Of a stretch of 60,108 bases of DNA, positions 2,520-55,485 are shown in pieces (the first letter of the stretch is position 1; every line of letters starts with the position of its first letter). The translations under genes and the position numbers were made by a program. Location: the IMG/VR virus record IMGVR_UViG_3300008262_000065, positions 1 through 60,108 of that record. One strand, 5' to 3'. The notes under the pieces were generated by a model that searched no databases, had not been told where the DNA came from, and was given only the letters and a program-made list of their open reading frames with translations. The DNA comes from a virus.

Positions 2520-3997
2520 TGATGGACTACAAAGGGCTGAATGTCATTGACAGAAAGCCCGGCTATTCCAACCTTGAGATGTTAAACCATTGCAATACCT
2601 TGTATGAAATTGTCACCAAGACAAAGGACATCAAGGTATTGGATGGTAGAGCATACGTAATCAAACAAGTTCTTAAACATAAGACAGACAAAGAAACAAT
2701 GGATAGACTCAGCAATAGCATTGAGTACTACCAAAAACTACACGAAACAGAAATGAATAATCAAATCGAATTAAGAGACTATCAAAAAAGTATTGTCTCA
2801 AAGGCAGCAGAAATCATCAATGAGCACGGGTTCGTGTATCTTGCGATGGAAGTTAGAACGGGGAAGACTCTAACAAGCCTAAGCATCTGCGATAATATTC
2901 CAAACGTAGAGAATGTATTGTTCCTGACCAAGAAGAAAGCAATTGATTCTATCACTGCTGATTCAGATAAACTGTGCCCATCATACGTACTGTTCGTCAT
3001 GAACTATGAGAGCATACACAAGCTACCTAAAGTAAAGTGGGATGTAATCATATGTGATGAGGCACACGGCATGGGTGCATTCCCAAAGCCAAGTCTAAGG
3101 TCCATGCAGGTGAGAGATTTAGTTAGGGATAACAATAGCAGAGTGATACTGCTATCGGGTACCCCAACTCCTGAGTCATACTCTCAAATGTACCATCAGG
3201 TATATGGCATTCCGAACAACCCATTCAAAAAGTACTCAAACTTCTATCGGTTCGCTGATGACTACGTAAAGAAAACTCAGAAGAAAATCAATGGCGTATT
3301 GATTAATGACTACTCGAATGGTTTGCCTACCATAATGGATGCTATGGTGCACTGCACAATTAGATGGTCCCAAGTAGACTCAGGGTTCGTAGTCCAAACT
3401 TCAGAGGAAGTATTGCGTGTGGATTTGGAAGAATCAACTTATAAGTTAATTTCTAAACTCAAAAAAGATTTGGTGGTTGAGGGTAAGAGTGAGACTATCT
3501 TGGGTGATACTCCCGTGAAACTCATGAGCAAACTGCACCAATTGTATAGTGGTACCATAAAGTTTGAGAGTGGGAAATCAATGGTGATAGACTTGAGCAA
3601 AGCCAAGTTCATCAAGGAACGATTCAAGTATCAGAAGATTGGCATCTTCTACAAGTTCAAAGAAGAACTCACTGCACTTCAGGAAGTCTTTGGTAATAAG
3701 CTAACAACTGAACTCAGTGTCTTTGAAGACACCGACAAACACATAGCGTTACAGATTGTATCCGGAAGAGAAGGCATCTCGCTGAAGAAGGCTGACTGCC
3801 TCGTGTACTATAACATTGACTTCAGTGCCACAAGCTATTGGCAGAGCAGGGATAGAATGACTACCAAGGATAGACTTGAGAATAAAATCTATTGGATATT
3901 CTCTAATGGTGGTATTGAGGACATGGTATACAAAGCCGTGTCCAAGAAAAAAGACTATACCCTATCTCATTTCAAAAGAGATTTGCTAATATTGTAA
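2519..3997 (+). CDS. Superfamily 2 helicase (SNF2/DEAD-like)
   Basis: This is an ATP-dependent DNA or RNA translocase of 492 residues. Motif I is EVRTGKT near residue 110, motif II is DEAH near 179, motif III is LSGTPTP near 211, and motif VI is QSRDRMTTKDR near 441. The second RecA-like domain is recognisable by the IVSGREGISLKKAD segment. It probably works with the upstream primase-helicase in replication or recombination. A copy of the dispersed 16-bp inverted repeat lies inside the gene at 3717-3732 and is read as SVFEDT. The start overlaps the upstream stop; a second ATG follows immediately. Confidence 0.85.
   Translation: MMDYKGLNVIDRKPGYSNLEMLNHCNTLYEIVTKTKDIKVLDGRAYVIKQVLKHKTDKETMDRLSNSIEYYQKLHETEMNNQIELRDYQKSIVSKAAEIINEHGFVYLAMEVRTGKTLTSLSICDNIPNVENVLFLTKKKAIDSITADSDKLCPSYVLFVMNYESIHKLPKVKWDVIICDEAHGMGAFPKPSLRSMQVRDLVRDNNSRVILLSGTPTPESYSQMYHQVYGIPNNPFKKYSNFYRFADDYVKKTQKKINGVLINDYSNGLPTIMDAMVHCTIRWSQVDSGFVVQTSEEVLRVDLEESTYKLISKLKKDLVVEGKSETILGDTPVKLMSKLHQLYSGTIKFESGKSMVIDLSKAKFIKERFKYQKIGIFYKFKEELTALQEVFGNKLTTELSVFEDTDKHIALQIVSGREGISLKKADCLVYYNIDFSATSYWQSRDRMTTKDRLENKIYWIFSNGGIEDMVYKAVSKKKDYTLSHFKRDLLIL
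3717..3732. repeat. Dispersed 16-bp inverted repeat, copy in helicase gene
   Basis: GTGTCTT-TG-AAGACAC lies within the SF2 helicase coding sequence and is read as VFEDT. Its codon frame differs from that of copies inside the giant gene and TerL. Confidence 0.9.
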
Positions 3998-28833: not shown

Positions 28834-30282
28834 TTATGCTCCGTAACGGAATAGGAAGAAGTTGTTTGCTCCCAAAGTGCACACGGCACGTTCAGAGAGG
28901 AAGTTTACTTCCATTGCGTCAAGGTCACTTGTTGCAGCGCCACCGGCAGAACCTGTAATCCAAGTTTTGTACCTGCGGTCCTCAGCTTCAGACGCACGGT
29001 AACGCACGTGAAGGAATGGACGCTTGGCATTTTTACCAAGGATTTGGTCATACACAGTGGTAGAACCTGCAGGAACAAGCATACCTGTGATTACGTTAGC
29101 GGTAGTAGTACCTGTGGTAGACAAAGTCAAACCACCCCGCATGGTTGGGTCGTTCAGATACTTCCAATCAGACTTGTAGAAGTCATAACCTCTACGGAAT
29201 CCGCTGAAGCCAAGGTTCAACGCCATGTCGGTATCGTTGTCGAACAAACCGAATGAAGCTGAGTTAGCAACACCTGTTCCGTTGAAACCGTTAAGGGTAG
29301 CCAACATATCGTCAATGTCGAAAGAGAACTCACGGTTAACGAAAAGAACATTCTCTTCGATAGAACCTTGCTTGTCAAGACGAGTAACGATAGTATCAAA
29401 GTCAGCCAAGGTAGTTGGGTTACCTGCACCCCACACGTTACCACGAGAGTTAACTACGTAGAACACACCTTCAGAACCTTTGTTACCATAGGTTGGGTTA
29501 AGACCTGAGTTAGCAACACCTGAACCTGTTTCTGCAGGAACTGCTTCCAACATAGCGGTTTCAAGATAGTCTTCAAAACGAAGACGAGTCTCGTGCTCTG
29601 ACTTCAAGTACCACAAGTAACCTGTAGCACCATTCTCGGTAGTTACTTCAACCCAACCAATCTGAGCCATATCAGAACCTGAAACGGCATACTTATCTTT
29701 GATAATGATAGGAGAGTTGCTGAAGATTTCATCTTCTGCTTCCAAAGAACCAACCATACCTACAGTTCCTTTTTTGAATTCAGAACCATAAACGAATACG
29801 GTGAATTTGTTTGCAGCAGAAGCGTTGGTGATACCCGCTGCTTCGTAGAAGGCTACAGTGAAGGTAGCTGCTGAAGTGCTAACTGCAGTAACGATACCTT
29901 TGTTTTGGGTAGGACCTGCTACGTTAGGAGTAATCATAACGGTTTGACCCGGACGGATTGCAATACCTGATACGTTAAGGTCGTTAACGGTAAAGGTCGC
30001 ACTGTCAGCGGTGGTCAATACAGTAGTAGTTACATCTACGTACTTGGTGTGAAGACGACCTTGTTCTGCCCATTTGATTTGGTCAGAGTTAGAAGGCATC
30101 TCAGCACCTACCATACGAAGGAAGGAAGCTACTGTGCGGTTTCCATAGCGTTCAAATTCTTTCTCATAAGTATCAGGAAGATACTGATTCAAGAAGTTGA
30201 AGTTAGTAATGTAATTGGTGGATAGGGCAACCTGCTCTGCTGAGGGCTGCAACTGAAATCCGGGAGTTGAATTAACTGCCAT
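28834..30282 (-). CDS. Major capsid protein (HK97-fold, crAss-like)
   Basis: A 482-residue protein matching the length and style of crAss-like major capsid proteins (about 490 residues). Recognisable segments include the N-terminal ALSTNYITNFNFLNQYLPD, the central HETRLRFEDYLETAML, and the C-terminal FGLFDNDTDMALNLGFSGFRRG and YDFYKSDWKYLNDPT. Internal Thr/Val-rich sequence near residues 75-160 looks like an inserted beta domain. It follows the scaffold and portal genes as usual. Identification is by recognition of the family, not by a search. Confidence 0.85.
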   Translation of the reverse strand: MAVNSTPGFQLQPSAEQVALSTNYITNFNFLNQYLPDTYEKEFERYGNRTVASFLRMVGAEMPSNSDQIKWAEQGRLHTKYVDVTTTVLTTADSATFTVNDLNVSGIAIRPGQTVMITPNVAGPTQNKGIVTAVSTSAATFTVAFYEAAGITNASAANKFTVFVYGSEFKKGTVGMVGSLEAEDEIFSNSPIIIKDKYAVSGSDMAQIGWVEVTTENGATGYLWYLKSEHETRLRFEDYLETAMLEAVPAETGSGVANSGLNPTYGNKGSEGVFYVVNSRGNVWGAGNPTTLADFDTIVTRLDKQGSIEENVLFVNREFSFDIDDMLATLNGFNGTGVANSASFGLFDNDTDMALNLGFSGFRRGYDFYKSDWKYLNDPTMRGGLTLSTTGTTTANVITGMLVPAGSTTVYDQILGKNAKRPFLHVRYRASEAEDRRYKTWITGSAGGAATSDLDAMEVNFLSERAVCTLGANNFFLFRYGA

Positions 30283-30307
30283 TGTTTTTGTTTAGTTTAA
30301 GGGTTTT

Positions 30308-31399
30308 TTATATTCTTTTTGCACTTTTGATTTTCAACCCACGGCTTGCGCCTGCGTTTACTTCTCTTATTTGCACTCCCCCCTTATTCATCGCTTCAGG
30401 TGCTTTACGTTCAGACATATTCACATTTTTTATTTTACGTGTCACATCTTCTGTGGCATCTGCTAATCCTTGTTCATAAAAGAACTTGGCGAATTTTTCG
30501 GGGTTCATTGCTATGGCTAACGACTTGTGATAACCTACTGCATCTTTCATAAGACCATTCTCATCCAAGTACTTATTGATAAAGTTCATTGGAGTTGATT
30601 GTACCTTCTTCAATTCAGTGGCATCACCGGGAGCAAAAGTAAGTTTGCGGTCATTAACATTGAACTCAAAACCTTTGAATTCTTGACCAAACACTTCGTC
30701 AGTCTTCTGTTGGAACCACTCACGCTTTCTTTCTTGCTCTTCGTTTAAAGTGCTCGCCTGCTTAACGTATTGCTTATATGCTTCATACTCTTCTTTCTCG
30801 TCATCAGAAATACCAACCGTTCTTGACTCAAGGGGTTGTTTGTACTTTTCTTGCTGCTCGACAAAGTAGGTTTTAGCTTTAGCAATCGCTTTTTTCTTTG
30901 CTAATTTGGCTCTCTTAATATCTGAGTCATCATCCAAGTCTTCATTATACATGAAGTCTTCCATCATAGCCTCGATGTCATCTTCATCAAGACCATCCTC
31001 AGTTGCTAAGAAATACTGCTTTAGCATTTTATCAGGGTCCATAGAATCAAAATCTTCTTGCAACTTCAAGAAGTCTTGGATACCACGACCCGTATCTTTT
31101 TTGTACTTTAGGAATGCAGCAACATCTTCAGGCAAATCGTCATTGCTTTCTCTTGTTGCTACTAAGTCATCAAATGACTTTATTTCCTTGTTGTACCTTT
31201 TTCCAATATATGAAAGAACGTCTTCTTCTTTGAGTTCGATTGGTGCTTCAATTGTTTCTGTGGTCTCTATGGTTTCAGCCTGACTATTGTCATCCAATCC
31301 CCCATTCAGACTCTGCTCGTGTTTATCAAGCAACTCCTGTTCTACCTCAGCAACACTCTTCTCCGATACACCTGTTAACTCTCTTACTTTAAATTCCAT
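30308..31399 (-). CDS. Scaffolding-like protein
   Basis: This 363-residue protein is highly charged, acidic and helical (DSMDPDKMLKQYFLATEDGLDEDDIEAMMEDF and long Lys/Glu stretches), with a basic C-terminal tail (ASRGLKIKSAKRI), the usual design for a phage capsid scaffold that binds the capsid protein through its C-terminus. It lies between the portal and major capsid genes. No protease motif is seen. A promoter-like box precedes it at 31417-31424. Confidence 0.65.
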   Translation of the reverse strand: MEFKVRELTGVSEKSVAEVEQELLDKHEQSLNGGLDDNSQAETIETTETIEAPIELKEEDVLSYIGKRYNKEIKSFDDLVATRESNDDLPEDVAAFLKYKKDTGRGIQDFLKLQEDFDSMDPDKMLKQYFLATEDGLDEDDIEAMMEDFMYNEDLDDDSDIKRAKLAKKKAIAKAKTYFVEQQEKYKQPLESRTVGISDDEKEEYEAYKQYVKQASTLNEEQERKREWFQQKTDEVFGQEFKGFEFNVNDRKLTFAPGDATELKKVQSTPMNFINKYLDENGLMKDAVGYHKSLAIAMNPEKFAKFFYEQGLADATEDVTRKIKNVNMSERKAPEAMNKGGVQIREVNAGASRGLKIKSAKRI

Positions 31400-31416
31400 T
31401 TGATATGATTTTTATG

Positions 31417-31424
31417 CAAAGTTA
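31417..31424 (-). promoter_or_regulatory. Bacteroidota-type -7 box TAACTTTG
   Basis: TAACTTTGCA on the minus strand lies 17 bases before the scaffold start at 31399, in the gap after the portal gene. No clear -33 TTG. Confidence 0.5.
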
Positions 31425-31442
31425 TAGAAAAATTTTTTATAC

Positions 31443-33878
31443 TTATCTCGGAGAGAATTCAGCTAAGTCAAAACCATCAAGTGAATCTTCATTTGATTCA
31501 AAGTTTTGAGGCGGTAAGTTCAACTTTCTCTGATTAATCAATTGAGATTGCTCAGTGTTCTGTTGGCTTATACGCTTTGACTTGGCATCTTCTTTTGCCA
31601 TCTCTCTTTTAGATAGTTCACCACCATTCATCTTAGCCAACTGAATGTTATAGTTGAATTCCTCAGACATCAACCTGCTCTTCAATTCAGCCTCGTTGTT
31701 CATCTTCTCCATCTCGAATGCAATCTCTGCTTGTTTTAGCTGCATCTTCTGACGAGTCTCCATCTCAATCTTTTGAACTGCTAACTGAGCAGCCATCTCT
31801 TGAGACTTCATTTGTTGTTGAGCAGTTATAGCTTGCTTCTGCATCATCATCTTCTCTTCACGTTCCTGCTTCTTAACACGCTTCAACTTCAGCAATTGGT
31901 TTGCAAGTTTTATATTCTTCAACTCACGTATATCAATTGCATCCTCAAGATTGATGTCACCCTTCTGTAGAGCAATCATAATGTTCTGCTCAAGTTGTGC
32001 CTTCTGCTCTTCATCCGGAGAAATATCAATAAAGATTCCGAAGTCATAGATATACAAATCTTTTACCTCACCCAAGATACTTACATTGTACTTGCCAATC
32101 TTATTGGCAAAGTCATCTCTGAAGTCAGCATACTCAAGAATATCAGATACTCTATATGTCAATGCTTCTGAGATAGACTTGAATAGATAAAGACTGCTAT
32201 CAAGGATATGTCGAGTAGCCGTATTTGAATTCAACGCAGCCAACTTCTGAACGCCAACCAATGAATGCGGGTCAGGGTCAGAACCATCACGAGCCTCATT
32301 CAATCCCGTAACGGAACGAATCATATCCATGTAATGGTTGTAGTTGGTAATCAGCATTTGTGTTTTAGCAGCACCTGAATTACTATTCAACTCTTGAATA
32401 GGAACACGAGCATTATTGAAATCGCCATCTTGAGTGTACGACCTACCAATAACACTACCTGTTTGGAAGTATAATCTCAATGCATCTTCAGGATTGTAGG
32501 CATTACCTGTTCCCAAGTCAACCTCATTCAACCCATCAGCATCAATGAATACACCATCAGGTACTACTCTTGCAATAACCTGCTGCAATTTCAAGTGTGT
32601 TATCTGAATCAAGTCAGCAAAAGGAATCATCCTACGCACCAATGACTCAATCACACCCTTATACATACGTGGTGCTACTGCAACATAGTTTGGCAAAGCG
32701 TGTTGTGATGCTGACTTTGGACGAACCATATTCTCAGCCATCTCCCACTTCAATAAGATGTTGGTTCCCATAACCATAACACCATTATACCAAACATCAA
32801 TGGTCTTCTCAACTTTCTCGAAACGACCTTCTTCCATCATCTCTACAGGTGGATTGAATTGGTCATCCTTCTCTACCATACGAGTACTACCATTGTCAAG
32901 AATCTTCTTCTTATAGACTATCTTTTTAGTGGTCTTGTAATTAAAGTAAAGAAGAGTGCAAGTATCCCTGTAAAAAATATTATTCTCATAGAACTGTGCT
33001 ACGTTGTAATAATCATACCAACTCTGACTGTACTTAGATATTTCCTCTAAGTCTTCTCTTGTGAGAGATTGGTCAATCTTCATCAATTCAGTAATTGGCA
33101 GAGTCTTAATCTCTCCCCAATAGAAGCAATCTCTGAAGTATGGGTCCTCGGTATAACTGTAAACGATATTAGCAGGGTCCACATATGATATTTGAACTCC
33201 CGCACCGGGAAGAAACTCATGCTTCTGAACTGCCAATCCTATAGTCATCAAATCATAATCACATTGCTTTCTTATGTAATCATAATTGTTCTCCTCAAGT
33301 AAAGTATTGATGGCTTCCTCTTCAGCTATCTCAATCGCAGGTTTGTAATTGAGTTGCATATACAATGACAACTCCTCATCAGTAGATGGGAGTTCATCAG
33401 GATTCATAGTAAATGGGTCTACACCTGTTTGTTCTTGGATATTCTGAAGAAGGTCCTTGGCAACCATCTGCCCTTCAATCATATCCTGATACTTGCTTCT
33501 CTTAGCTTGAGACATAGCATCCTGAGAATATGCCTTAACCTTAAACAAACGGTCAGACATACCATTAACAACGATGTCAACGAATTTTGGGATAATAGGA
33601 ACAGGTGTCCAATCCAAGTTCAAATACGACAAGTCACCATTTACGGCAAGTTCATCTTTATACTTTTGTGTTGGTTGCTCACCACGTGCATATAAACGTA
33701 GTCTATGGAAGTCTCTCCATTGACTGTAATACCTGCATTGATTTCCATCCTTACGAAACCATTCGTATTGGATAGCTTGCCCTATCTGAAGCCCAAACTG
33801 CTCTGTGTTCTTCTCAGCATCAGATACAAACTGACTTGGGAATCCGACAGATGATATATCTATCTTGACATCTTTCAT
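31443..33878 (-). CDS. Portal protein (crAss-like)
   Basis: This 811-residue protein forms the ring through which DNA enters the capsid. It resembles crAss-like portals in length and in segments such as WTPVPIIPKFVDIVVNGMSD and RSKYQDMIEGQMVAKD near the N-terminus and SVTGLNEARDGSDPDPHSL in the second half. The C-terminal 170 residues form a long Gln/Glu/Lys coiled coil. It overlaps the TerL stop by four bases (ATGA), pointing to coupled translation. Confidence 0.85.
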   Translation of the reverse strand: MKDVKIDISSVGFPSQFVSDAEKNTEQFGLQIGQAIQYEWFRKDGNQCRYYSQWRDFHRLRLYARGEQPTQKYKDELAVNGDLSYLNLDWTPVPIIPKFVDIVVNGMSDRLFKVKAYSQDAMSQAKRSKYQDMIEGQMVAKDLLQNIQEQTGVDPFTMNPDELPSTDEELSLYMQLNYKPAIEIAEEEAINTLLEENNYDYIRKQCDYDLMTIGLAVQKHEFLPGAGVQISYVDPANIVYSYTEDPYFRDCFYWGEIKTLPITELMKIDQSLTREDLEEISKYSQSWYDYYNVAQFYENNIFYRDTCTLLYFNYKTTKKIVYKKKILDNGSTRMVEKDDQFNPPVEMMEEGRFEKVEKTIDVWYNGVMVMGTNILLKWEMAENMVRPKSASQHALPNYVAVAPRMYKGVIESLVRRMIPFADLIQITHLKLQQVIARVVPDGVFIDADGLNEVDLGTGNAYNPEDALRLYFQTGSVIGRSYTQDGDFNNARVPIQELNSNSGAAKTQMLITNYNHYMDMIRSVTGLNEARDGSDPDPHSLVGVQKLAALNSNTATRHILDSSLYLFKSISEALTYRVSDILEYADFRDDFANKIGKYNVSILGEVKDLYIYDFGIFIDISPDEEQKAQLEQNIMIALQKGDINLEDAIDIRELKNIKLANQLLKLKRVKKQEREEKMMMQKQAITAQQQMKSQEMAAQLAVQKIEMETRQKMQLKQAEIAFEMEKMNNEAELKSRLMSEEFNYNIQLAKMNGGELSKREMAKEDAKSKRISQQNTEQSQLINQRKLNLPPQNFESNEDSLDGFDLAEFSPR

Positions 33879-36163
33879 CTAATTATTTCGCTTTTAGTTC
33901 CCTTATTATTATATGTAGCAAAGTTAATGCTAATTTTTGATTGTGTTTTTTCAGGTTGATAAAGATGTTTCTGATTTGCCATAATAGCTAATCCCGAACT
34001 GATAGATGCGTCAAACATTGTACGATTGTTTATATCAAACTTTGCCCAATCCTCTAATGTTCTGCTGAAAGGCATGGTACCCATATCATCAGCATCCCTA
34101 TACTTACCTTCTAAATCAAGTCCTATATGCTTCTCAATGTAAGACTCAATCGCTGCTGCGTGTGCTTGCTTAACATCCTCAGATGAGTTAGGTATCCCAC
34201 CAAGTTCTTTCTCAGTCTTTGATAGCTTTACATAAGGCTTATCAGGACGGTTAAGACAGAAGCCTCTATACCCTCTATTCTTGAAGTGGTATAGCAATCG
34301 TGGCTTGTTGTTCTCTATCAGAATAGGCATACCGTAAAACGCACAAGCCATAAGAACTTCTTCAAAGAATATCTCAGCGGTCTGAGGACGAGCAATGTAC
34401 TCAAGAAAGAATTGATTTACAGGTCCCTCATCAACGTGATAACTCGTAAGACCATGCAGTGCACCATTAGACCCTTTGCCTACTACTACGCCTGATATGT
34501 CATATGAGTCACAACCGAATGCCCCCATGTGGTCATTGCCGGGATACTTTAATCCATTACGGTCTATAACTCTATTCTGATAATTCTTGCCCGGTAGCCA
34601 TGACACTAAGAATCTTCCTCTTGAATCAGGTGACCAAACAACCTTTGAATCTTTTATGCCATCCTTCCAATGGAACGAACCTCTTGTTACATGGTGCGCC
34701 TGAATCAAAGAGTCATTGTAATCTATCTGCTGATAAATCTTTGTAAGATTAAACAATGCAGCTTTACTCTCATCTCTGAATGCGTGTGACTCTGTTCTTG
34801 GGAACTGACGATAGAATTCATTTAGAGCATCAGCATCAGCCTTCAATGATTCAACCTCTGCTTCCCAATAGTCAATGGCACCATTCATAATCCAATTGTC
34901 GTCAATGCCACGAATAGGCTCAGATGGTTTACGCAACACAGGCATACCATATCTATCAATGAAGCCTTCCATGTTCCACTCCATGGGTATGAACAATGCA
35001 TATAGCCCTGACTTAGTCTGACCATTGGCATTCCTCGTAGATAAACGAGAGTCCTCATAAATATCCTTGAAGTTCTGACCACCCTTAGATAATGCATTTG
35101 AGGTAGAACCCATCATGCATTTGCCAATTATCTTGCTACCCAATCTAAGACAAGTCTTTGTTACTCGCCAATTCTCTTTTATGTTTACAGGCTTGACCCA
35201 CTTCCCACTTTCGTCATGGGCTAAGAACAACAACTTCTCACCGTCATATGAGTTGTCCTCTGTGTTCTTCCAATCTATTGTGGTATCCAATCCATCAATC
35301 TCACTGACTGATGACTCAGACATATTCTTCTTGGTAATCTTTGAAGCAGGTACCCGATAAGCTAACTCAGTCTTTGGCTTGTCCATACCATCCTGTACAG
35401 GCTTGAAGAAGAATGGTAGATTAGTACTGATTGGAACAACCTTATCAGTAAACATCTTCTTAGCATCGGCACCTGTCTTAGACAAGATACCAATACGTGC
35501 ATCTCTTGCAAGCGTTGCTATGTTCACGCACTCAGAAGAAGACATAAACGAAAAGCCTGAACGCCTTATCTTCAGATATGTCATACCGAATGACCTCAAG
35601 TCTGCACGACAAGCTTCCCAAAATATAAAGAATATCCTATTGGCTTCACGATAATCCGGGTACCCAATATCAATCTTGGACCACTGTAGATACATATAAT
35701 GTGCTCCTGTGATATACGTAGGAACACCATTATTCATGAACCAAGCGCCTTCTTCTCTTCGATTAAACGCTTGCTCAATGTAATCAACCCATTGATTCTT
35801 GAAATCATTGGGCATCTCATTCCATTGAAAGATTGAGTTTATTTTAGCTAATGGAGTTGGAAGTTCTTCTCTCTCCCAATATTGCTCTGCTGCTTTAGTG
35901 TGTCTTTGAAGACACTTTTCAGGAGCCAATGGTAACGCTATGTAAAGACCCGCTATGTTTACTATCTGACCAATTTGACCTGTCTTTGAAATAACAACAA
36001 CATCATATTGTGGGTCATAGCCATACACCCAACTACGATTACGATTTTTATTTGTTACTGCGTTCTTAGGTATGTAGTCATGAACGACATAGCACAAAGC
36101 ATTATCGTGCCCTTCGTTCTGCCCATCCTTGCTTTGATTCAACTTTCTCGATTCCTTTTCCAT
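33875..36163 (-). CDS. terL: Terminase large subunit (crAss-like)
   Basis: A 762-residue packaging ATPase/nuclease. The ATPase part shows a degenerate Walker A region near KIRRSGFSFMSSSE (about residue 200) and Walker B LLFLAHDE near 312. The nuclease domain has FGCDSYD near 547 and a later acidic cluster (DADDMG) near 690. Length and segments such as YITGAHYMYLQWSKIDIGY match crAss-like TerL. A copy of the dispersed inverted repeat at 35900-35915 is read as CLQRH near residue 85. It overlaps the upstream small gene by 62 bases. Confidence 0.88.
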   Translation of the reverse strand: MEKESRKLNQSKDGQNEGHDNALCYVVHDYIPKNAVTNKNRNRSWVYGYDPQYDVVVISKTGQIGQIVNIAGLYIALPLAPEKCLQRHTKAAEQYWEREELPTPLAKINSIFQWNEMPNDFKNQWVDYIEQAFNRREEGAWFMNNGVPTYITGAHYMYLQWSKIDIGYPDYREANRIFFIFWEACRADLRSFGMTYLKIRRSGFSFMSSSECVNIATLARDARIGILSKTGADAKKMFTDKVVPISTNLPFFFKPVQDGMDKPKTELAYRVPASKITKKNMSESSVSEIDGLDTTIDWKNTEDNSYDGEKLLFLAHDESGKWVKPVNIKENWRVTKTCLRLGSKIIGKCMMGSTSNALSKGGQNFKDIYEDSRLSTRNANGQTKSGLYALFIPMEWNMEGFIDRYGMPVLRKPSEPIRGIDDNWIMNGAIDYWEAEVESLKADADALNEFYRQFPRTESHAFRDESKAALFNLTKIYQQIDYNDSLIQAHHVTRGSFHWKDGIKDSKVVWSPDSRGRFLVSWLPGKNYQNRVIDRNGLKYPGNDHMGAFGCDSYDISGVVVGKGSNGALHGLTSYHVDEGPVNQFFLEYIARPQTAEIFFEEVLMACAFYGMPILIENNKPRLLYHFKNRGYRGFCLNRPDKPYVKLSKTEKELGGIPNSSEDVKQAHAAAIESYIEKHIGLDLEGKYRDADDMGTMPFSRTLEDWAKFDINNRTMFDASISSGLAIMANQKHLYQPEKTQSKISINFATYNNKGTKSEIIR
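33919..33926 (-). promoter_or_regulatory. Bacteroidota-type -7 box TAACTTTG before portal
   Basis: TAACTTTG on the minus strand lies inside the 3' end of TerL, 40 bases before the portal start. Its position inside a coding sequence makes it less certain. Confidence 0.3.
35900..35915. repeat. Dispersed 16-bp inverted repeat, copy in TerL
   Basis: GTGTCTT-TG-AAGACAC within TerL, read on the coding strand as CLQRH, the third reading frame seen among coding copies. Confidence 0.9.
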
Positions 36164-36392
36164 TGTTTTCCAATATGCTCTCTTCTGCTTCTAATCTTGC
36201 AAGGATTTCAAAAGCATCAAAGATTGCCAACCTTTTAGATGCTGCTGCATTCTTTAACTTGTCTGCAGCTAAATCATCATCGAAATCTTCTTTTATAATA
36301 TCCTCTTTAGCAACCTTGATGAGTTGCTCTACTGCTACATAGCCTGCAGCAATAACTTTCTTACGTAGTTCCTTGGGGTCCATCATCAGCAT
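36102..36392 (-). CDS. Candidate small terminase subunit
   Basis: This 96-residue, helical, charged protein (MLMMDPKELRKKVIAAGYVAVEQ ... AADKLKNAAASKRLAIFDAFEILARLE) sits immediately before TerL and overlaps it by 62 bases. Size, helical content and position fit a small terminase subunit, although a classic helix-turn-helix is not obvious. ATGs at 36386 and 36383 are alternative starts. Confidence 0.45.
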   Translation of the reverse strand: MLMMDPKELRKKVIAAGYVAVEQLIKVAKEDIIKEDFDDDLAADKLKNAAASKRLAIFDAFEILARLEAEESILENNGKGIEKVESKQGWAERRAR

Positions 36393-36858
36393 TATGTTTT
36401 AAGAATAATACCTGAACAAGACGAGAGTCATCACCTGTCCCAAAGTTCTCAAGCAAAGCACGTGAATGAGGATAACGTGTCCCAAATATAACTGCACGGT
36501 TGAACTTCATATGAATAGAACACATCTTTTCTCCGTCCTCATCATACAGAATGGTACCGTCTTCAGGATGTGATTCATTCAAATATAGCAACGCAATTAA
36601 ATCTCCCATCATCTCATCAGTGTGGATGAAGTTTGGTTCCTCTTGCCCATGCGGTGATTGTCTTATGAAGTTGTATACTACCTCATATCTCCATAAGAAA
36701 TAGTTCTCAATGAAATGCTGAAACTCGTCATCACTTCTCTGTTGTATACCTTTGAATACTTTGTCAGCATCAAAGATTTCCTCAAACCCATATGATAGTG
36801 CGTCACGCACATATGAAGATGGGTCTACTAATACATTGTCTAATACGATTAAATTCAT
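36361..36858 (-). CDS. 2-oxoglutarate/Fe(II) oxygenase-like protein
   Basis: This 165-residue protein fits a double-stranded beta-helix dioxygenase: H-x-D in FIHTDEM (about residues 79-81), followed by LIALLYLNESHPEDGTILY, a second His in RYPHSR near 131 and a following Arg, giving the HxD...H...R set that binds iron and 2-oxoglutarate. It lies between the GroES-like protein and the small terminase candidate. Such enzymes in phages may hydroxylate proteins or nucleic acids; the substrate is unknown. Confidence 0.6.
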   Translation of the reverse strand: MNLIVLDNVLVDPSSYVRDALSYGFEEIFDADKVFKGIQQRSDDEFQHFIENYFLWRYEVVYNFIRQSPHGQEEPNFIHTDEMMGDLIALLYLNESHPEDGTILYDEDGEKMCSIHMKFNRAVIFGTRYPHSRALLENFGTGDDSRLVQVLFLKHNADDGPQGTT

Positions 36859-37421
36859 AGTTTGATTGTTATTTGATGGTCGAACATACGATAGAGTTTC
36901 TCTCCATCGACATAAAACTCATACTCGCTATCAGGTTGAAAGCATACCTTATCTCCCGGATTGACTCCTTTGGATAATAGCATATCATTCGGATATACCA
37001 TTGTAGCCATCAATGGCTCATATGTAGTTGGCTTCTTGATATATGATTCTTCAGGTGCAATTGGTTTCACAAAACAGTATCTGTCGTATGCATTCCAATT
37101 GCCATCTTTCTTGTATAAAAAGAATTGGTCAGGCTCAATAAAGAATAAGTCTTCCTTAAAGAAACTCTTACCACTCTTTCTTCTACCCTGCATATCATTG
37201 TAGAACTTGAATGTGTTATGGTGTACAAGAAGTGTATCGCCTATTCCTATTGGACCATCATACCCCAACGGTAACTCAATTACTTCTGCTTCTCTATTTG
37301 AAAACCTATGGTCTTCTTCAGATGTATTAAAGATAAAGTCAACACCGGATACATCCTTAGTGTTGTTATATCTTTTGCTATTAAGTGGTCGTGCTATAAA
37401 GTAGAATGGCGACTGCATCAT
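36855..37421 (-). CDS. Tandem GroES-like protein (tentative)
   Basis: This 188-residue protein has two regions that each recall the 10-kDa co-chaperonin. The second ends with VNPGDKVCFQPDSEYEFYVDGEKLYRMFDHQITI, the layout of the GroES end (KVGDKVLF ... VDGEEY ... DILA). The first has EVIELPLGYDGPIGIGDTLLVHHNTF after a loop-like stretch that could be a mobile loop. A double GroES would resemble chloroplast Cpn20. The phage also encodes GroEL and a normal GroES elsewhere. A lone beta-barrel virion protein is an alternative. It overlaps the upstream gene by four bases. Confidence 0.4.
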   Translation of the reverse strand: MMQSPFYFIARPLNSKRYNNTKDVSGVDFIFNTSEEDHRFSNREAEVIELPLGYDGPIGIGDTLLVHHNTFKFYNDMQGRRKSGKSFFKEDLFFIEPDQFFLYKKDGNWNAYDRYCFVKPIAPEESYIKKPTTYEPLMATMVYPNDMLLSKGVNPGDKVCFQPDSEYEFYVDGEKLYRMFDHQITIKL

Positions 37422-49121: not shown

Positions 49122-49137
49122 GTGTCTTTAAAGACAC
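49122..49137. repeat. Dispersed inverted repeat before hammerhead 1
   Basis: GTGTCTT-TA-AAGACAC, here a perfect palindrome, 5 bases upstream of hammerhead 1. In RNA it would leave a hairpin about 10 bases from the new 3' end after cleavage. Confidence 0.9.
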
Positions 49138-49142
49138 CTCTC

Positions 49143-49191
49143 GCGTCCAAGGGTGAGTGCCCTTGCTGATGAGTCCAAGAGGACGAAACGC
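49143..49191 (+). ncRNA. Type III hammerhead ribozyme 1
   Basis: All conserved parts are present. Stem III is GCGT (49143-49146) with ACGC (49188-49191). The cleavage triplet is GTC with cutting after C49147. Stem I is CAAGGG (49148-49153) with CCCTTG (49160-49165) and a six-base loop TGAGTG. The core CTGATGA is 49166-49172. Stem II is GTCC (49173-49176) with GGAC (49181-49184), loop AAGA. The second core strand is GAA (49185-49187), followed by A49188 pairing with T49146. It lies in the leader of the amidoligase-like gene, and translation of that frame back to 49153 would run through the ribozyme, so the gene start is ATG 49222. Confidence 0.93.
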
Positions 49192-49221
49192 AAACAAAAA
49201 ACCAACAAAAACACCACAGAT

Positions 49222-50196
49222 ATGACAACATTCCAAGAATTAAAAGAAGGTCGCAAGTACGAAATTACGGGTGACTATGACCGCAGCGTAGTTCAAAGCT
49301 ACCACAGAAAGCCAAGTGCCCTCAAGCACAATGTCAGCAAGTTTGCTGCCGATGTAATGGGACTCAAAGCCATTGACCGCAGCAAGGCAATTTTGAGAGT
49401 GCAGGACGAGTTTATGAGCAAGTTTACCATTGGGTATGAGATTGAGAAAAACGCTTTCCATAGGGGTGCGGTACAAGAATACCCACTGCTGCAGGGGTTT
49501 GAACGTGACGGGTCATGTGGCTATGAGGCAGTGACAAACATCTTACCCCTACTGCCCGAAGGCAAGTGGCGCAACAAGGTGTACGAGATGTTTACGCAGG
49601 CTGAGAAAATTATTGACTCTCGCTATAGCCCTGCGGACCGCAGGTGCGGTGGTCATATCACCTTGACCTGCAAGGACCTATCAAGTGATGAGATGAGGGT
49701 AAAATTGAGAGCATATGCAGGCATCCTGCTTGCCTTGTACGAGAGTCGTATCTCGAATAGGTACTGCGGTCACAACTTGCGTATGCAGCCCGACAATGAG
49801 AATTGGTACAATGGACCGAATTGCTACGAGGGCAATGGCACAAGGTATCAGTTTGCACTTGAGAAGACCTTTGGCTATGGTCGTGAGGCACAAGGTGCGG
49901 TTGAGTTCCGTATCGTGAGCAAATTTGAGTCAGTGAAGCAGTGCTTTCGCAGGTATGAATTGTGCTACGAACTCATGGACACTGCGTTCAATAGCCCGAC
50001 AAGTTTTCCTTCCTTTCTGAAGCGAATCCGTCCGATAGTTCTTTCAATGTACGGCAACGATGCTGCAGCCTGCGACCTGCGTCTTGAGAAGGCAAAGCAC
50101 TATCAGCACTTCATCAACACGGGTAAGATACACGAGAGCATTGTATCGGTCCTTGACCCGCACAGAAACCATGGATGGCGACATATGCCCTTCTGA
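49222..50196 (+). CDS. Amidoligase-like enzyme
   Basis: About 324 residues from ATG 49222 (MTTFQELKEGRKYE), downstream of hammerhead 1. It fits the amidoligase (carboxylate-amine ligase, COOH-NH2 ligase) family of the glutamine-synthetase fold: TIGYEIEKN near residue 70 (the vGxExE start), DGSCGYEAVTNILPL near 96, CGGHITLT near 142, and GAVEFRIV near 226. Such enzymes join a carboxylate to an amine using ATP. The early genes also include a class II amidotransferase/GGCT fusion, a known partner type. Alternatives are few given these motifs, but no search was possible. Confidence 0.65.
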   Translation: MTTFQELKEGRKYEITGDYDRSVVQSYHRKPSALKHNVSKFAADVMGLKAIDRSKAILRVQDEFMSKFTIGYEIEKNAFHRGAVQEYPLLQGFERDGSCGYEAVTNILPLLPEGKWRNKVYEMFTQAEKIIDSRYSPADRRCGGHITLTCKDLSSDEMRVKLRAYAGILLALYESRISNRYCGHNLRMQPDNENWYNGPNCYEGNGTRYQFALEKTFGYGREAQGAVEFRIVSKFESVKQCFRRYELCYELMDTAFNSPTSFPSFLKRIRPIVLSMYGNDAAACDLRLEKAKHYQHFINTGKIHESIVSVLDPHRNHGWRHMPF

Positions 50197-50213: not shown

Positions 50214-50229
50214 GTGTCTTTGAAGACAC
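50214..50229. repeat. Dispersed inverted repeat before hammerhead 2
   Basis: GTGTCTT-TG-AAGACAC, 7 bases before hammerhead 2 and 17 bases after the amidoligase stop. Confidence 0.9.
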
Positions 50230-50236
50230 TGCTCCC

Positions 50237-50287
50237 GTTGTCGGGGAATGCGAGTTCCTCCTGATGAGTTCAAAAGAACGAAACAAC
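50237..50287 (+). ncRNA. Type III hammerhead ribozyme 2
   Basis: Stem III: GTTGT (50237-50241) with ACAAC (50283-50287). Triplet GTC, cutting after C50242. Stem I: GGGGAA (50243-50248) with TTCCTC (50255-50260), one G-U pair, loop TGCGAG. Core CTGATGA 50261-50267. Stem II: GTTC (50268-50271) with GAAC (50276-50279), loop AAAA. Core GAA 50280-50282. It lies in the leader of the 91-residue gene at 50315. Stems I, II and III differ from hammerhead 1 but all pair. Confidence 0.93.
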
Positions 50288-50314
50288 AAAACAACACACT
50301 AAAAAAAACAACAT

Positions 50315-50590
50315 ATGGTACACAAAATTCACGATGACATGAGTCACTACAGAGTAAGCTTCGATGGTATCCACGGCAAGCCAAAGGCTATGCAGTTGGA
50401 GAACTATCTCAACAGAAACAAGTTCGAACTTGATTGGGAGAACTTCAAGGAGGTATGCAATGGGCACAAGGAGGTGACCATTTGGAGAAACCCACGTACT
50501 GAAGATAGCATCGAAAGGTACGGCAAGAACCTTGTCTACACTGAGTTCCACGAGGAACGGAATGTGAGGTGGTTATTGACTAACTACTGA
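50315..50590 (+). CDS. Small hypothetical early protein
   Basis: A 91-residue protein (MVHKIHDDMSHYRVSFDGIHG), mixed alpha/beta, with many His, Asn and aromatic residues. It lies between hammerheads 2 and 3, so self-cleavage would release it as a 388-nt mRNA. No family recognised. Confidence 0.6.
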   Translation: MVHKIHDDMSHYRVSFDGIHGKPKAMQLENYLNRNKFELDWENFKEVCNGHKEVTIWRNPRTEDSIERYGKNLVYTEFHEERNVRWLLTNY

Positions 50591-50603: not shown

Positions 50604-50619
50604 GTGTCTTCAAAGACAC
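50604..50619. repeat. Dispersed inverted repeat before hammerhead 3
   Basis: GTGTCTT-CA-AAGACAC, 5 bases before hammerhead 3. Confidence 0.9.
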
Positions 50620-50624
50620 TGCCC

Positions 50625-50675
50625 GTTGTAAGTGGATGTGAGTCCACTCTGACGAGTCCAAAAGGACGAAACAAC
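50625..50675 (+). ncRNA. Type III hammerhead ribozyme 3
   Basis: Stem III: GTTGT (50625-50629) with ACAAC (50671-50675). The cleavage triplet is GTA, cutting after A50630, allowed by the UH rule. Stem I: AGTGGA (50631-50636) with TCCACT (50643-50648), loop TGTGAG. Core CTGACGA 50649-50655, with C at the variable position. Stem II: GTCC (50656-50659) with GGAC (50664-50667), loop AAAA. Core GAA 50668-50670. It lies in the leader of the gene at 50695. Confidence 0.92.
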
Positions 50676-50694
50676 AAACTAAAAAACAACATAT

Positions 50695-50976
50695 ATGACA
50701 CAACGTATTTCAAAACAAGTTAAAGCCATTGCTGATGCGCACATAGCTGCGAAAGCAAACGGCACATTCGACAACCCGCACGTGAGCACACGTGAGCAAG
50801 TAATTCAGGCACTGTTTGAGGGCAAGACCTTTGACGAGGTACTGCGTCAGGTAGAGACAAGGTTCTGCAGCATTACTACACTGCTACTGCAGGGCACATT
50901 TGACTACACGACTCAAGCCTACAAGAGAGATGTTTACAGAGGCTTCAAGACACTATTACAAGGGGGTGCAAGATGA
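50695..50976 (+). CDS. Small hypothetical early protein
   Basis: A 93-residue, mostly helical protein (RISKQVKAIADAHIAAKANGTF, STREQVIQALFEGKTFDEVLRQV), basic overall. It overlaps the next gene by four bases (ATGA), so the two are translated together from the 714-nt fragment between hammerheads 3 and 4. Confidence 0.6.
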   Translation: MTQRISKQVKAIADAHIAAKANGTFDNPHVSTREQVIQALFEGKTFDEVLRQVETRFCSITTLLLQGTFDYTTQAYKRDVYRGFKTLLQGGAR

Positions 50977-51317: not shown

Positions 51318-51333
51318 GTGTCTTCAAAGACAC
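51318..51333. repeat. Dispersed inverted repeat before hammerhead 4
   Basis: GTGTCTT-CA-AAGACAC, 6 bases before hammerhead 4. Confidence 0.9.
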
Positions 51334-51339
51334 TGCCCC

Positions 51340-51388
51340 ACGTACAAGAGTGAGTGCTCTTGCTGATGATTCCAAAAGGATGAAACGT
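51340..51388 (+). ncRNA. Type III hammerhead ribozyme 4 (weakened stem II)
   Basis: Stem III: ACGT (51340-51343) with ACGT (51385-51388). Triplet GTA, cutting after A51344. Stem I: CAAGAG (51345-51350) with CTCTTG (51357-51362), loop TGAGTG identical to hammerhead 1. Core CTGATGA 51363-51369. Stem II: TTCC (51370-51373) with GGAT (51378-51381) has a T-T mismatch at the base next to the core, leaving three pairs. Core GAA 51382-51384. Compared with hammerhead 1, one stem I pair has changed from G-C to A-T on both sides. Activity may be reduced by stem II. Confidence 0.88.
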
Positions 51389-51409
51389 AAAACCAAAAAC
51401 AAAACAGAT

Positions 51410-51640
51410 ATGACAGAGCAAAACAACAATGAGAAGAGCACCATACATTGGGTTGTATGTGTTCCTGATTTTGATGAGACAATTAAAATCAAGATGTTCA
51501 ACGCCTATGAAAGCGCACAAGTTTACATTGATGGGGTGAGGGCTGAGTATGACGCTATCATTTACACGAACAAGGAGCACGTAATCATAAACCTATGCCT
51601 TCAGTATGGCATATTACCTACACAATACCTAACATTCTAA
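51410..51640 (+). CDS. Small hypothetical early protein
   Basis: The frame is open upstream through hammerhead 4, but ATG 51410 (MTEQNNNEKSTIHW) lies just after it and is the likely start, giving 76 residues. Beta/alpha with HWVVCVPDFDETIKIKMFN. Followed closely by the next gene. Confidence 0.55.
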   Translation: MTEQNNNEKSTIHWVVCVPDFDETIKIKMFNAYESAQVYIDGVRAEYDAIIYTNKEHVIINLCLQYGILPTQYLTF

Positions 51641-54006: not shown

Positions 54007-55128
54007 ATGTGCATCATAATCGTAAAACAACGCAACATTGAGATACCATCAGAGTATCTAAAAAATTCATCACGCATCAACCCCCACGGGTTGGGTGTGG
54101 TATGGCTTGACACCTTTGAGATAAGCTATCACAAGTCAAGCGAGTGGTCAGTACTAAACACTGCCCGTCCGTACATTGCCCACTTCAGATACGCAACGGT
54201 AGGCAAGGTAGGTCCCGACAATACGCACCCATTCAGATGTGGTGCAAACAAGCATGAGTACCTGATGATGAACGGTACCATTCATGGTCTTGGCAACAAG
54301 GATGTATGCGATACAAAAGTATTGGCTGAGTCATTGGATTCTGTGCCACGCCACAAGTGGAAGGCTGAGTTGGAGAAGAACAGACTTGTTCGATTCGTAA
54401 CAATCAACACAAGGCTGCGTACCTTTCAGCTATACAACAGAGACTTATGGACATTCCGCAACGGGGTGTGGTATTCCAAGGACAACATCTTTCAGGACCA
54501 TGTGGTGGCAGTGTACGGCACACTGAAGAAGGGGCACGGCAACTACCACAGATACCTGACTGACTCAAAGTTTGTAGGGTCAGGCACAACCAAGGACAAG
54601 TACCCGCTTATCATACACGGCTTGCCTTATATGCTTGACAAGAAGGGCAAGGGGCACAACGTGAAGGTGGATGTATTCAAAGTGAATGACACGGTCCTTG
54701 GTAAGTTGGACCAACTTGAGGGTCACCCGAATTGGTATTGCCGAAAGCAAATCACCATCACGATGAAGAAGAAAGAGGTGACTTGTTGGTTGTACTTTGC
54801 CAAGGATTCAATGGCAGACGAGGGAGATGAGATGCACGAGTCATACGAGGTAGGCTACATACACCACCCATTTAAAAAGGAGACTACCATGAGAGACTTG
54901 TTCCTGCCTGCTGAGAAGCCCACGTATAAGCAGGTAAAGTTTGAGTCATTCGATGACCTATACTCAAACCTATCAGGCATTGAGACAGAGGATGATGAGC
55001 CTATCATTGACGAGATACCATACTGCACTTCATGCTACAAGGACCTTGCGAGTGACGGCTACGGGAACTACTGCTGCATAGGATGCAACGAGTGGTACAC
55101 GCAGGCAGAGGTAGACAACTTGTTATAG
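54007..55128 (+). CDS. Class II glutamine amidotransferase fused to gamma-glutamylcyclotransferase and a zinc ribbon
   Basis: A 373-residue fusion. The N-terminal domain starts MCIIIVKQ, where removal of Met would expose the nucleophile Cys2 of class II amidotransferases; INPHGLGVVW, HFRYATVG and MNGTIHG are the other family motifs. From about residue 167, VAVYGTLKKGHGNYHRYL and the Glu in QLEGHPNW (about 237) mark a gamma-glutamylcyclotransferase-like domain. The C-terminus has CTSC near 340 and CCIGC near 356, a zinc ribbon. With the amidoligase-like gene it probably makes or trims gamma-glutamyl-type conjugates on a metabolite or protein. The exact chemistry is unknown. Confidence 0.8.
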   Translation: MCIIIVKQRNIEIPSEYLKNSSRINPHGLGVVWLDTFEISYHKSSEWSVLNTARPYIAHFRYATVGKVGPDNTHPFRCGANKHEYLMMNGTIHGLGNKDVCDTKVLAESLDSVPRHKWKAELEKNRLVRFVTINTRLRTFQLYNRDLWTFRNGVWYSKDNIFQDHVVAVYGTLKKGHGNYHRYLTDSKFVGSGTTKDKYPLIIHGLPYMLDKKGKGHNVKVDVFKVNDTVLGKLDQLEGHPNWYCRKQITITMKKKEVTCWLYFAKDSMADEGDEMHESYEVGYIHHPFKKETTMRDLFLPAEKPTYKQVKFESFDDLYSNLSGIETEDDEPIIDEIPYCTSCYKDLASDGYGNYCCIGCNEWYTQAEVDNLL

Positions 55129-55143
55129 TGTCTTTGAAGACAC
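55128..55143. repeat. Dispersed inverted repeat before the tRNA-like element
   Basis: GTGTCTT-TG-AAGACAC, beginning at the last base of the amidotransferase stop codon and ending one base before the tRNA-like element. Confidence 0.9.
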
Positions 55144-55144
55144 A

Positions 55145-55188
55145 AGGTGAATGGTTTCAGGGGGGTTCGATTCCCCCCGCACCTGCCA
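55145..55188 (+). ncRNA. tRNA-like T-arm/acceptor minihelix
   Basis: GGGGG (55161-55165), the seven-base loop TTCGATT (55166-55172) and CCCCC (55173-55177) form a perfect tRNA T-arm. It is followed by a 7-base acceptor strand CGCACCT (55178-55184), a discriminator G and CCA (55186-55188). A 5' acceptor-like strand AGGTG (55145-55149) pairs with CACCT. No D-arm or anticodon arm is present. GGTTT (55153-55157) could also pair with AAACC (55188-55192) as a pseudoknot. It could be an RNase P target, a tRNA 3'-end mimic, or a phage attachment-site remnant. Confidence 0.6.
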
Positions 55189-55212
55189 AACCCTTTTAAA
55201 AAAAACAGAAAC

Positions 55213-55485
55213 ATGAAAATCAAATTCAATCACACAGAGGAAACAACAACAGATGCATTCGGTATTAAAAACATTGACGCATTCGCAGAGAACCTATCAA
55301 AATCATTAGCTGATTTTGCATTGGACAAAGACAAGAACATGGTCAGCCACTTGGGCGAGTTGATTCAAGAGAACTTAACAGATGAGGAGATTCTATTCCT
55401 TGCAACGCAACGAGCAATGAACTACGTAGAACGTAGCAGACCATTGGTAGATGCATTCATTGATTACCTAAAGGAAAGGAACTAA
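55213..55485 (+). CDS. Small hypothetical early protein
   Basis: ATG 55213 (MKIKFNHTEETTTDAFG) gives 90 residues; an upstream start would translate through the tRNA-like element. Helical after the first 20 residues, with ENLTDEEILFLATQRAMNYVE. Function unknown. Confidence 0.6.
   Translation: MKIKFNHTEETTTDAFGIKNIDAFAENLSKSLADFALDKDKNMVSHLGELIQENLTDEEILFLATQRAMNYVERSRPLVDAFIDYLKERN

Follow-up and report, generated by a model that had tools for sequence, protein, structure and literature searches.

The window analyzed here is the whole 60,108-bp virus record IMGVR_UViG_3300008262_000065, and the subject of this report is a minimal element resembling transfer RNA (tRNA) on its plus strand (55145–55188), which we propose is probably a cut point in the phage transcript. 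The upstream gene (54007–55128, plus strand) encodes a protein of 373 aa that is glutamine-amidotransferase-like or gamma-glutamyl-cyclotransferase-like. Its stop codon overlaps by one base a 16-bp palindrome, GTGTCTTTGAAGACAC (55128–55143, plus strand), which could form a hairpin at the 3' end of the upstream message. The gene downstream of the element (55213–55485, plus strand) encodes 90 aa; a protein search for its relatives confirmed none, and homologues in the related loci L002, L003 and L024 likewise lie behind a minimal element. The portal protein of the window is 77% identical to that of MW202828 and 45–49% identical to those of Flavobacterium elemo phages and Maribacter phage Panino, which places the window phage near the Flavobacteriia podoviruses.

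The element folds like the 3' half of a tRNA

The element was read directly from the sequence and scored with two models, R1 and R2. It consists of 44 bases and comprises an acceptor stem, a D-loop-like linker, a T-arm and a terminal GCCA, all on the plus strand. The 5' strand of the acceptor stem, AGGTG (55145–55149), pairs with CACCT (55180–55184) and is followed by the 10-base linker AATGGTTTCA (55150–55159), which includes a GG that we read as the equivalent of tRNA G18-G19. The T-arm, GGGGGG-TTCGATT-CCCCCC, occupies 55160–55178, with its stem strands at 55160–55165 and 55173–55178 and its loop at 55166–55172. A single G (55179) stands between the T-arm and the acceptor 3' strand, and the latter is followed by the discriminator G and CCA (GCCA, 55185–55188), the two together spanning 55180–55188. 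The T-stem has six pairs in all, five of them in the standard tRNA register; read in that register, the acceptor 3' strand is the 7-nt CGCACCT, 5 of whose 7 bases pair, and it precedes the discriminator G and CCA. The element therefore resembles a tRNA 3' half closed by a short acceptor 5' strand. The D arm and the anticodon arm are absent, and about 10 nt alone separate the acceptor from the T-arm. This is the layout that the first-pass annotation had described, and direct reading of the sequence bears it out.

Three features of a tRNA are present in the element, namely the acceptor stem, a 5-bp T-stem and a TTCGANT loop, and so is the coaxial acceptor/T-stem of about 11–13 bp with a T-loop that characterizes minihelix-type substrates of ribonuclease P (RNase P). 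Model R1, whose training set excluded the window, scored the element at 39.6 bits (E 5e-7), and model R2 scored it at 43.3 bits. A chance T-arm can be set aside: in 200 dinucleotide shuffles of the window, perfect T-arms arose at a rate of 0.010 per window, and never with a 5-bp acceptor stem. ARAGORN called 0 tRNA genes in the window, and the Rfam model for transfer-messenger RNA (tmRNA, RF00023) detected a T-arm fragment alone, at 16.8 bits versus a gathering score of 47. At gathering scores the element matches no RNA family described in Rfam 15. A lenient Rfam search of eight related loci returned a single true tRNA and a fragment of tmRNA below threshold, and the hammerhead core CTGANGA...GAAA is not present in 55128–55212.

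A family with a covarying fold

Viral contigs were scanned with three patterns, each of which left out the acceptor stem. The first combined the palindrome with the T-loop; the other two did without the palindrome and placed GAATGGTT or AACGGTT before the T-loop. The three scans yielded at least about 175 distinct sites, and 155 of these, among the matches listed, have an acceptor stem of at least 5 bp. Such a stem was found in 14/14 sites of the first scan, versus 15% in a control in which the 5' and 3' halves were exchanged between sites. For the two palindrome-free scans it was found in 65/74 and 76/87 among the matches listed, versus 10% and 15% with swapped halves. The linker GG occurs in all 14 elements of the first scan, though the pattern did not require it, and the linker is 9–13 nt long across the family.

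Because the variable linkers were misaligned by MAFFT alone, each model was restricted to one register class. In the first nine elements, 96.0% of the cells in the covariation analysis were paired. Among 32 distinct model matches the figure was 94.5%, versus 58.6% for shuffled sequences, with a covariation score of 0.873 versus 0.194 and changes on both sides in 10 of the 11 pairs; because this alignment was fitted to the model, it is biased in the model's favor, a weakness from which the pattern-based counts of acceptor stems are free. Of 49 records chosen because they contain the motif, 48 have model matches, and some of them hold 7–10 copies. In a control on a 7.3-Mb cyanobacterial genome, R2 gave no match better than E 0.48. 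The first-pass annotation had allowed for a relic; the presence of the element in related phages with a covarying fold speaks against this.

The same annotation had suggested a phage attachment site or a mimic of the 3' end of a host tRNA or tmRNA. The T-arm is indeed tmRNA-like, and many phages integrate at the 3' ends of tRNAs. However, a search of 84,980 bacterial and archaeal genomes, among which the exact host may be missing, gave a single exact match to the 21-nt 3' sequence, and this match lies at a non-tRNA place in a metagenome-assembled genome of a cyanobacterium. In addition, the element is present in as many as ten copies per genome, its covarying stems match no single tRNA, and its acceptor stem differs in every relative. 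No integrase was recognized among the neighboring open reading frames (ORFs) inspected, a systematic integrase search not having been made. An attachment site or a captured piece of a host RNA is thus extremely improbable.

The CCA recorded in the first-pass annotation is present in the window as part of GCCA, but it is incidental. The general 3' end of the family is N-C-N-A, which resembles that of phage-encoded Flavobacteriia tRNAs without CCA, and CCA itself is found at this place in only about 8 of 96 elements. An end of this kind would suit a process in which the 3' side is decisive, RNase Z cutting after the discriminator to make the 5' end of the downstream messenger RNA (mRNA) and RNase P being secondary. 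CCA blocks RNase Z, and most copies are without it; furthermore, in Mycobacterium smegmatis phage Cuke the element is directly trailed by a hairpin, a purine-rich stretch and an ATG. The window and L003, on the other hand, share a GCCA end, and we consider a decisive role of RNase Z improbable.

Elements lie between co-directional genes

The stop codon of a co-directional ORF was found within 150 nt upstream in 80 of 96 distinct elements, at a median distance of 9 nt, compared to 36% of random places. The next start codon was found within 150 nt downstream in 83 of the 96 (median about 33 nt), compared to 62% of random places, for which the distribution was broader. These short distances on both sides indicate that the elements fill gaps between co-directional genes.

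The proximity to start codons, along with the conservation of the fold and not of the sequence, is consistent with a minihelix that remains uncut in the 5' leader, where it would stabilize the downstream message, space or insulate the ribosome-binding site, or bind a tRNA-binding protein (EF-Tu, TruB, TrmA or the CCA enzyme). We regard this explanation as unlikely. The preceding stop codon is nearer still than the start codon, the layout of the slot is that of self-cleaving ribozymes, and RNase P requires exactly such an elbow and a stack of about 12 bp.

Hammerhead ribozymes occupy the same slot

The window contains three type III hammerheads supported by the Rfam model RF00008, all on the plus strand: 49140–49194 (42.9 bits; palindrome at 49122, ATG at 49222), 50235–50289 (41.1 bits; palindrome at 50214, ATG at 50315) and 50623–50677 (41.2 bits; palindrome at 50604, ATG at 50695). 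A fourth hammerhead-like sequence (51337–51391, plus strand; palindrome at 51318, ATG at 51410) was below the Rfam cut-offs used, and its core was read as CTGATGA...GAAAC. The minihelix and the four hammerheads have one order in common, which is stop codon, palindrome, element, 17–27 nt and ATG.

We compared what stands directly behind the upstream gene (54007–55128) in fifteen relatives of this gene. In L002 and L003, whose upstream genes are 72% and 68% identical to that of the window, the same gene is directly followed by the palindrome and a minihelix with different stems: AGGCG/CGCCT in L003, a compensatory change relative to the window, and CTGATGG/CCGTCAG in L002. A fourth minihelix case is L024, where the C-terminal sequence encoded by the upstream gene is the same. 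A different arrangement stands behind this upstream gene in L004, L006, L007/L008, L009/L010/L012 and L013, where a hairpin comes first, then a type III hammerhead, then another gene; the hammerhead at this slot has Rfam model support in L004, L006 and L010 and was read by eye in the remaining loci. Hammerhead and minihelix are thus alternatives at one gene border. The downstream genes are homologous in all four minihelix cases and another gene follows in the hammerhead cases, which indicates that the element travels with the downstream gene. Both kinds of element coexist in the window and in G001, G002, G017, G018 and G020. Relatives also contain hammerhead-like sequences with a different topology (type I), at L004:1816 (Rfam E 0.029), L004:2053 and L014:1154.

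The 16-bp palindrome GTGTCTTNNAAGACAC is present in 16 copies in the window, where fewer than 1 is expected, and is kept in relatives. The copies are at 3717, 5227, 12151, 18736, 28796, 35900, 43733, 48157, 49122, 50214, 50604, 51318, 53968, 55128, 57707 and 59424, between genes and also inside long ORFs. The palindrome may have two roles, as an RNA hairpin and as a DNA-binding site.

Spread among phages

Phages of two bacterial phyla carry the elements: relatives of Flavobacteriia podoviruses and cultured mycobacteriophages. The cultured M. smegmatis phages among them include the Wildcatvirus group (MaryV and Cosmo, the latter with 2 copies) and Cuke, which has ten copies at 30009–37395. Eight of the ten Cuke copies fall where the annotation leaves gaps between small genes. 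The other two overlap the annotated starts of gp043 and gp044 (L208 7435 and 7718); a purine-rich stretch and an ATG come after the element, which suggests that these starts have probably been placed too far upstream. The element is useful for correcting gene starts in phage annotation. With ten copies in a cultured phage, the question of cleavage is directly testable.

Several related arrangements were observed. The cultured Tenacibaculum phage Gundel_1 has two tandem T-arm hairpins between genes (L080:1440-1545), the second of which closes with AGGTA/TACCT. L210, L218 and L230, which are different prophage-like contigs, carry the near-identical TCCCA-AACGGTTTTTTGG-T-arm-TGGGA, with four copies in L230. 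An intermediate form with a D arm and a T-arm but no anticodon arm lies behind the same palindrome on the minus strand of L026 (6092–6138). ARAGORN predicted a tmRNA gene in the Cellulophaga phages Calle_2 (MT732433, 43282 region, L074) and phi40:1 (KC821612, 26813 region, L071). Odd tRNA-like genes were found at L003:3113-3186, which has a 5-nt anticodon loop and immediately precedes the palindrome and the amidotransferase gene, and at MW202828:520-700 (L032), which has a D arm and no anticodon arm.

The last two genes are in keeping with a reading of the elements as decayed phage tRNA genes without function. This explanation is very improbable and is in effect refuted by the compensatory changes in 10 of 11 pairs; the fixed place of the elements between genes and their occurrence in phages of two phyla also argue against it.

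Discussion

We propose, with somewhat better than even confidence, that the element is a minimal tRNA-like RNA that marks cut points in polycistronic phage transcripts, serving as a substrate of RNase P and probably also of RNase Z, and that it is functionally exchangeable with hammerheads. The basis of this proposal was observed, namely the sequence, the covarying fold, the position, the genomic spread and the layout common with hammerheads; from these we infer cleavage, the responsible enzyme and the effect on the mRNA. The first-pass annotation had suggested a processing point parallel to the hammerheads, and the same layout, the hammerhead at the same slot in relatives and the covarying fold across phages lend this idea good comparative support.

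Bacterial RNase P cuts hairpins made of an acceptor stem, a T-stem and a T-loop alone, and the T-loop touches the specificity domain (S-domain) of the enzyme (PMC10465520, PMC11143913). In the phage element, the linker GG would dock to the T-loop in the manner of G18-G19 and build an elbow, and host RNase P would recognize this elbow together with the coaxial stack of about 11–12 bp. The predicted cut is at the 5' end of the acceptor stem, which is 55144/55145 in the window. In the many copies without CCA, RNase Z may also cut after the discriminator, which would release the minihelix. The upstream message would then end just past its stop codon, in the window with the palindrome hairpin at its 3' end, and the downstream message would gain its own processed, folded 5' end near the start codon. 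Cleavage by a type III hammerhead leaves the stem-I hairpin at the new 5' end. Since hammerheads would fill the same role at other borders of this phage group, the two elements may be functional alternatives.

Several observations weigh against this proposal. The acceptor stem in the window comprises 5 pairs and one mismatch, and folding with the flanks favors an outer pairing of the linker with the downstream AAACC. RCCA, the 3' determinant for RNase P, is kept in most copies just as N-C-N-A. The switch between hammerhead and minihelix is accompanied by a different downstream gene, which points to a cassette exchange and not to an exchange of the element alone. Finally, hairpins beside the element showed no enrichment over random places, so that an extra hairpin is not a general rule and the palindrome is a feature of this phage group alone. 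As a general feature of the family, pairing between the linker and the downstream sequence (GGTT/AACC) was rejected, the enrichment being weak (15/96 versus 8.6%).

The closest known counterparts are the RNase P model hairpins (pATSer and the McClain/Altman minihelices), which likewise combine an acceptor stem with a T-stem and T-loop, lack the D and anticodon arms and are cleaved at the 5' end of the acceptor (PMC10465520, PMC11143913). These hairpins are synthetic, whereas the phage elements are natural, multicopy and intergenic and have a D-loop-like GG linker. RNase P also cuts non-tRNA transcripts, such as some bacterial mRNAs and the phage C4 antisense RNA (PMC11143913), but these are individual cases and not a recurrent, covarying minimal tRNA-like module. 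Like the element, the tRNA-like domain of tmRNA (RF00023) has a T-arm and an acceptor stem and no D-stem; unlike tmRNA, the element has no mRNA-like domain and no alanine-type acceptor and is only 44 nt long. The type III hammerhead (RF00008) shares the slot, the layout and the phages with the element but is self-cleaving and has an unrelated fold. In mitochondrial transcripts, tRNA-like structures between genes (t-elements, tRNA punctuation) serve as cutting points. Those organellar structures are complete tRNAs or tRNA-like folds of larger size, in contrast to the minihelices of about 44 nt in phage operons.

No description of the element was found in the open-access full texts searched; subscription papers and preprints were outside the search, and an earlier report is possible. 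Processing signals that resemble tRNA are a known concept; what appears to be new is a minimal, multicopy form in phages that takes the place of hammerheads. Laboratory constructs account for most known RNase P substrates of such minimal shape; here, the shape is that of a recurrent genetic element. We give an even chance to the broader view that these elements form a new and widespread class of phage RNA, an acceptor/T-arm minihelix with a GG linker that would be standard operon punctuation in phages of at least Bacteroidota and Actinomycetota, recruiting host tRNA-maturation enzymes to mRNA and being interchangeable with self-cleaving ribozymes. The element offers a natural explanation for the purpose of hammerheads in phage operons and, if it is cut, shows phages borrowing tRNA enzymes to separate and mature their mRNAs.
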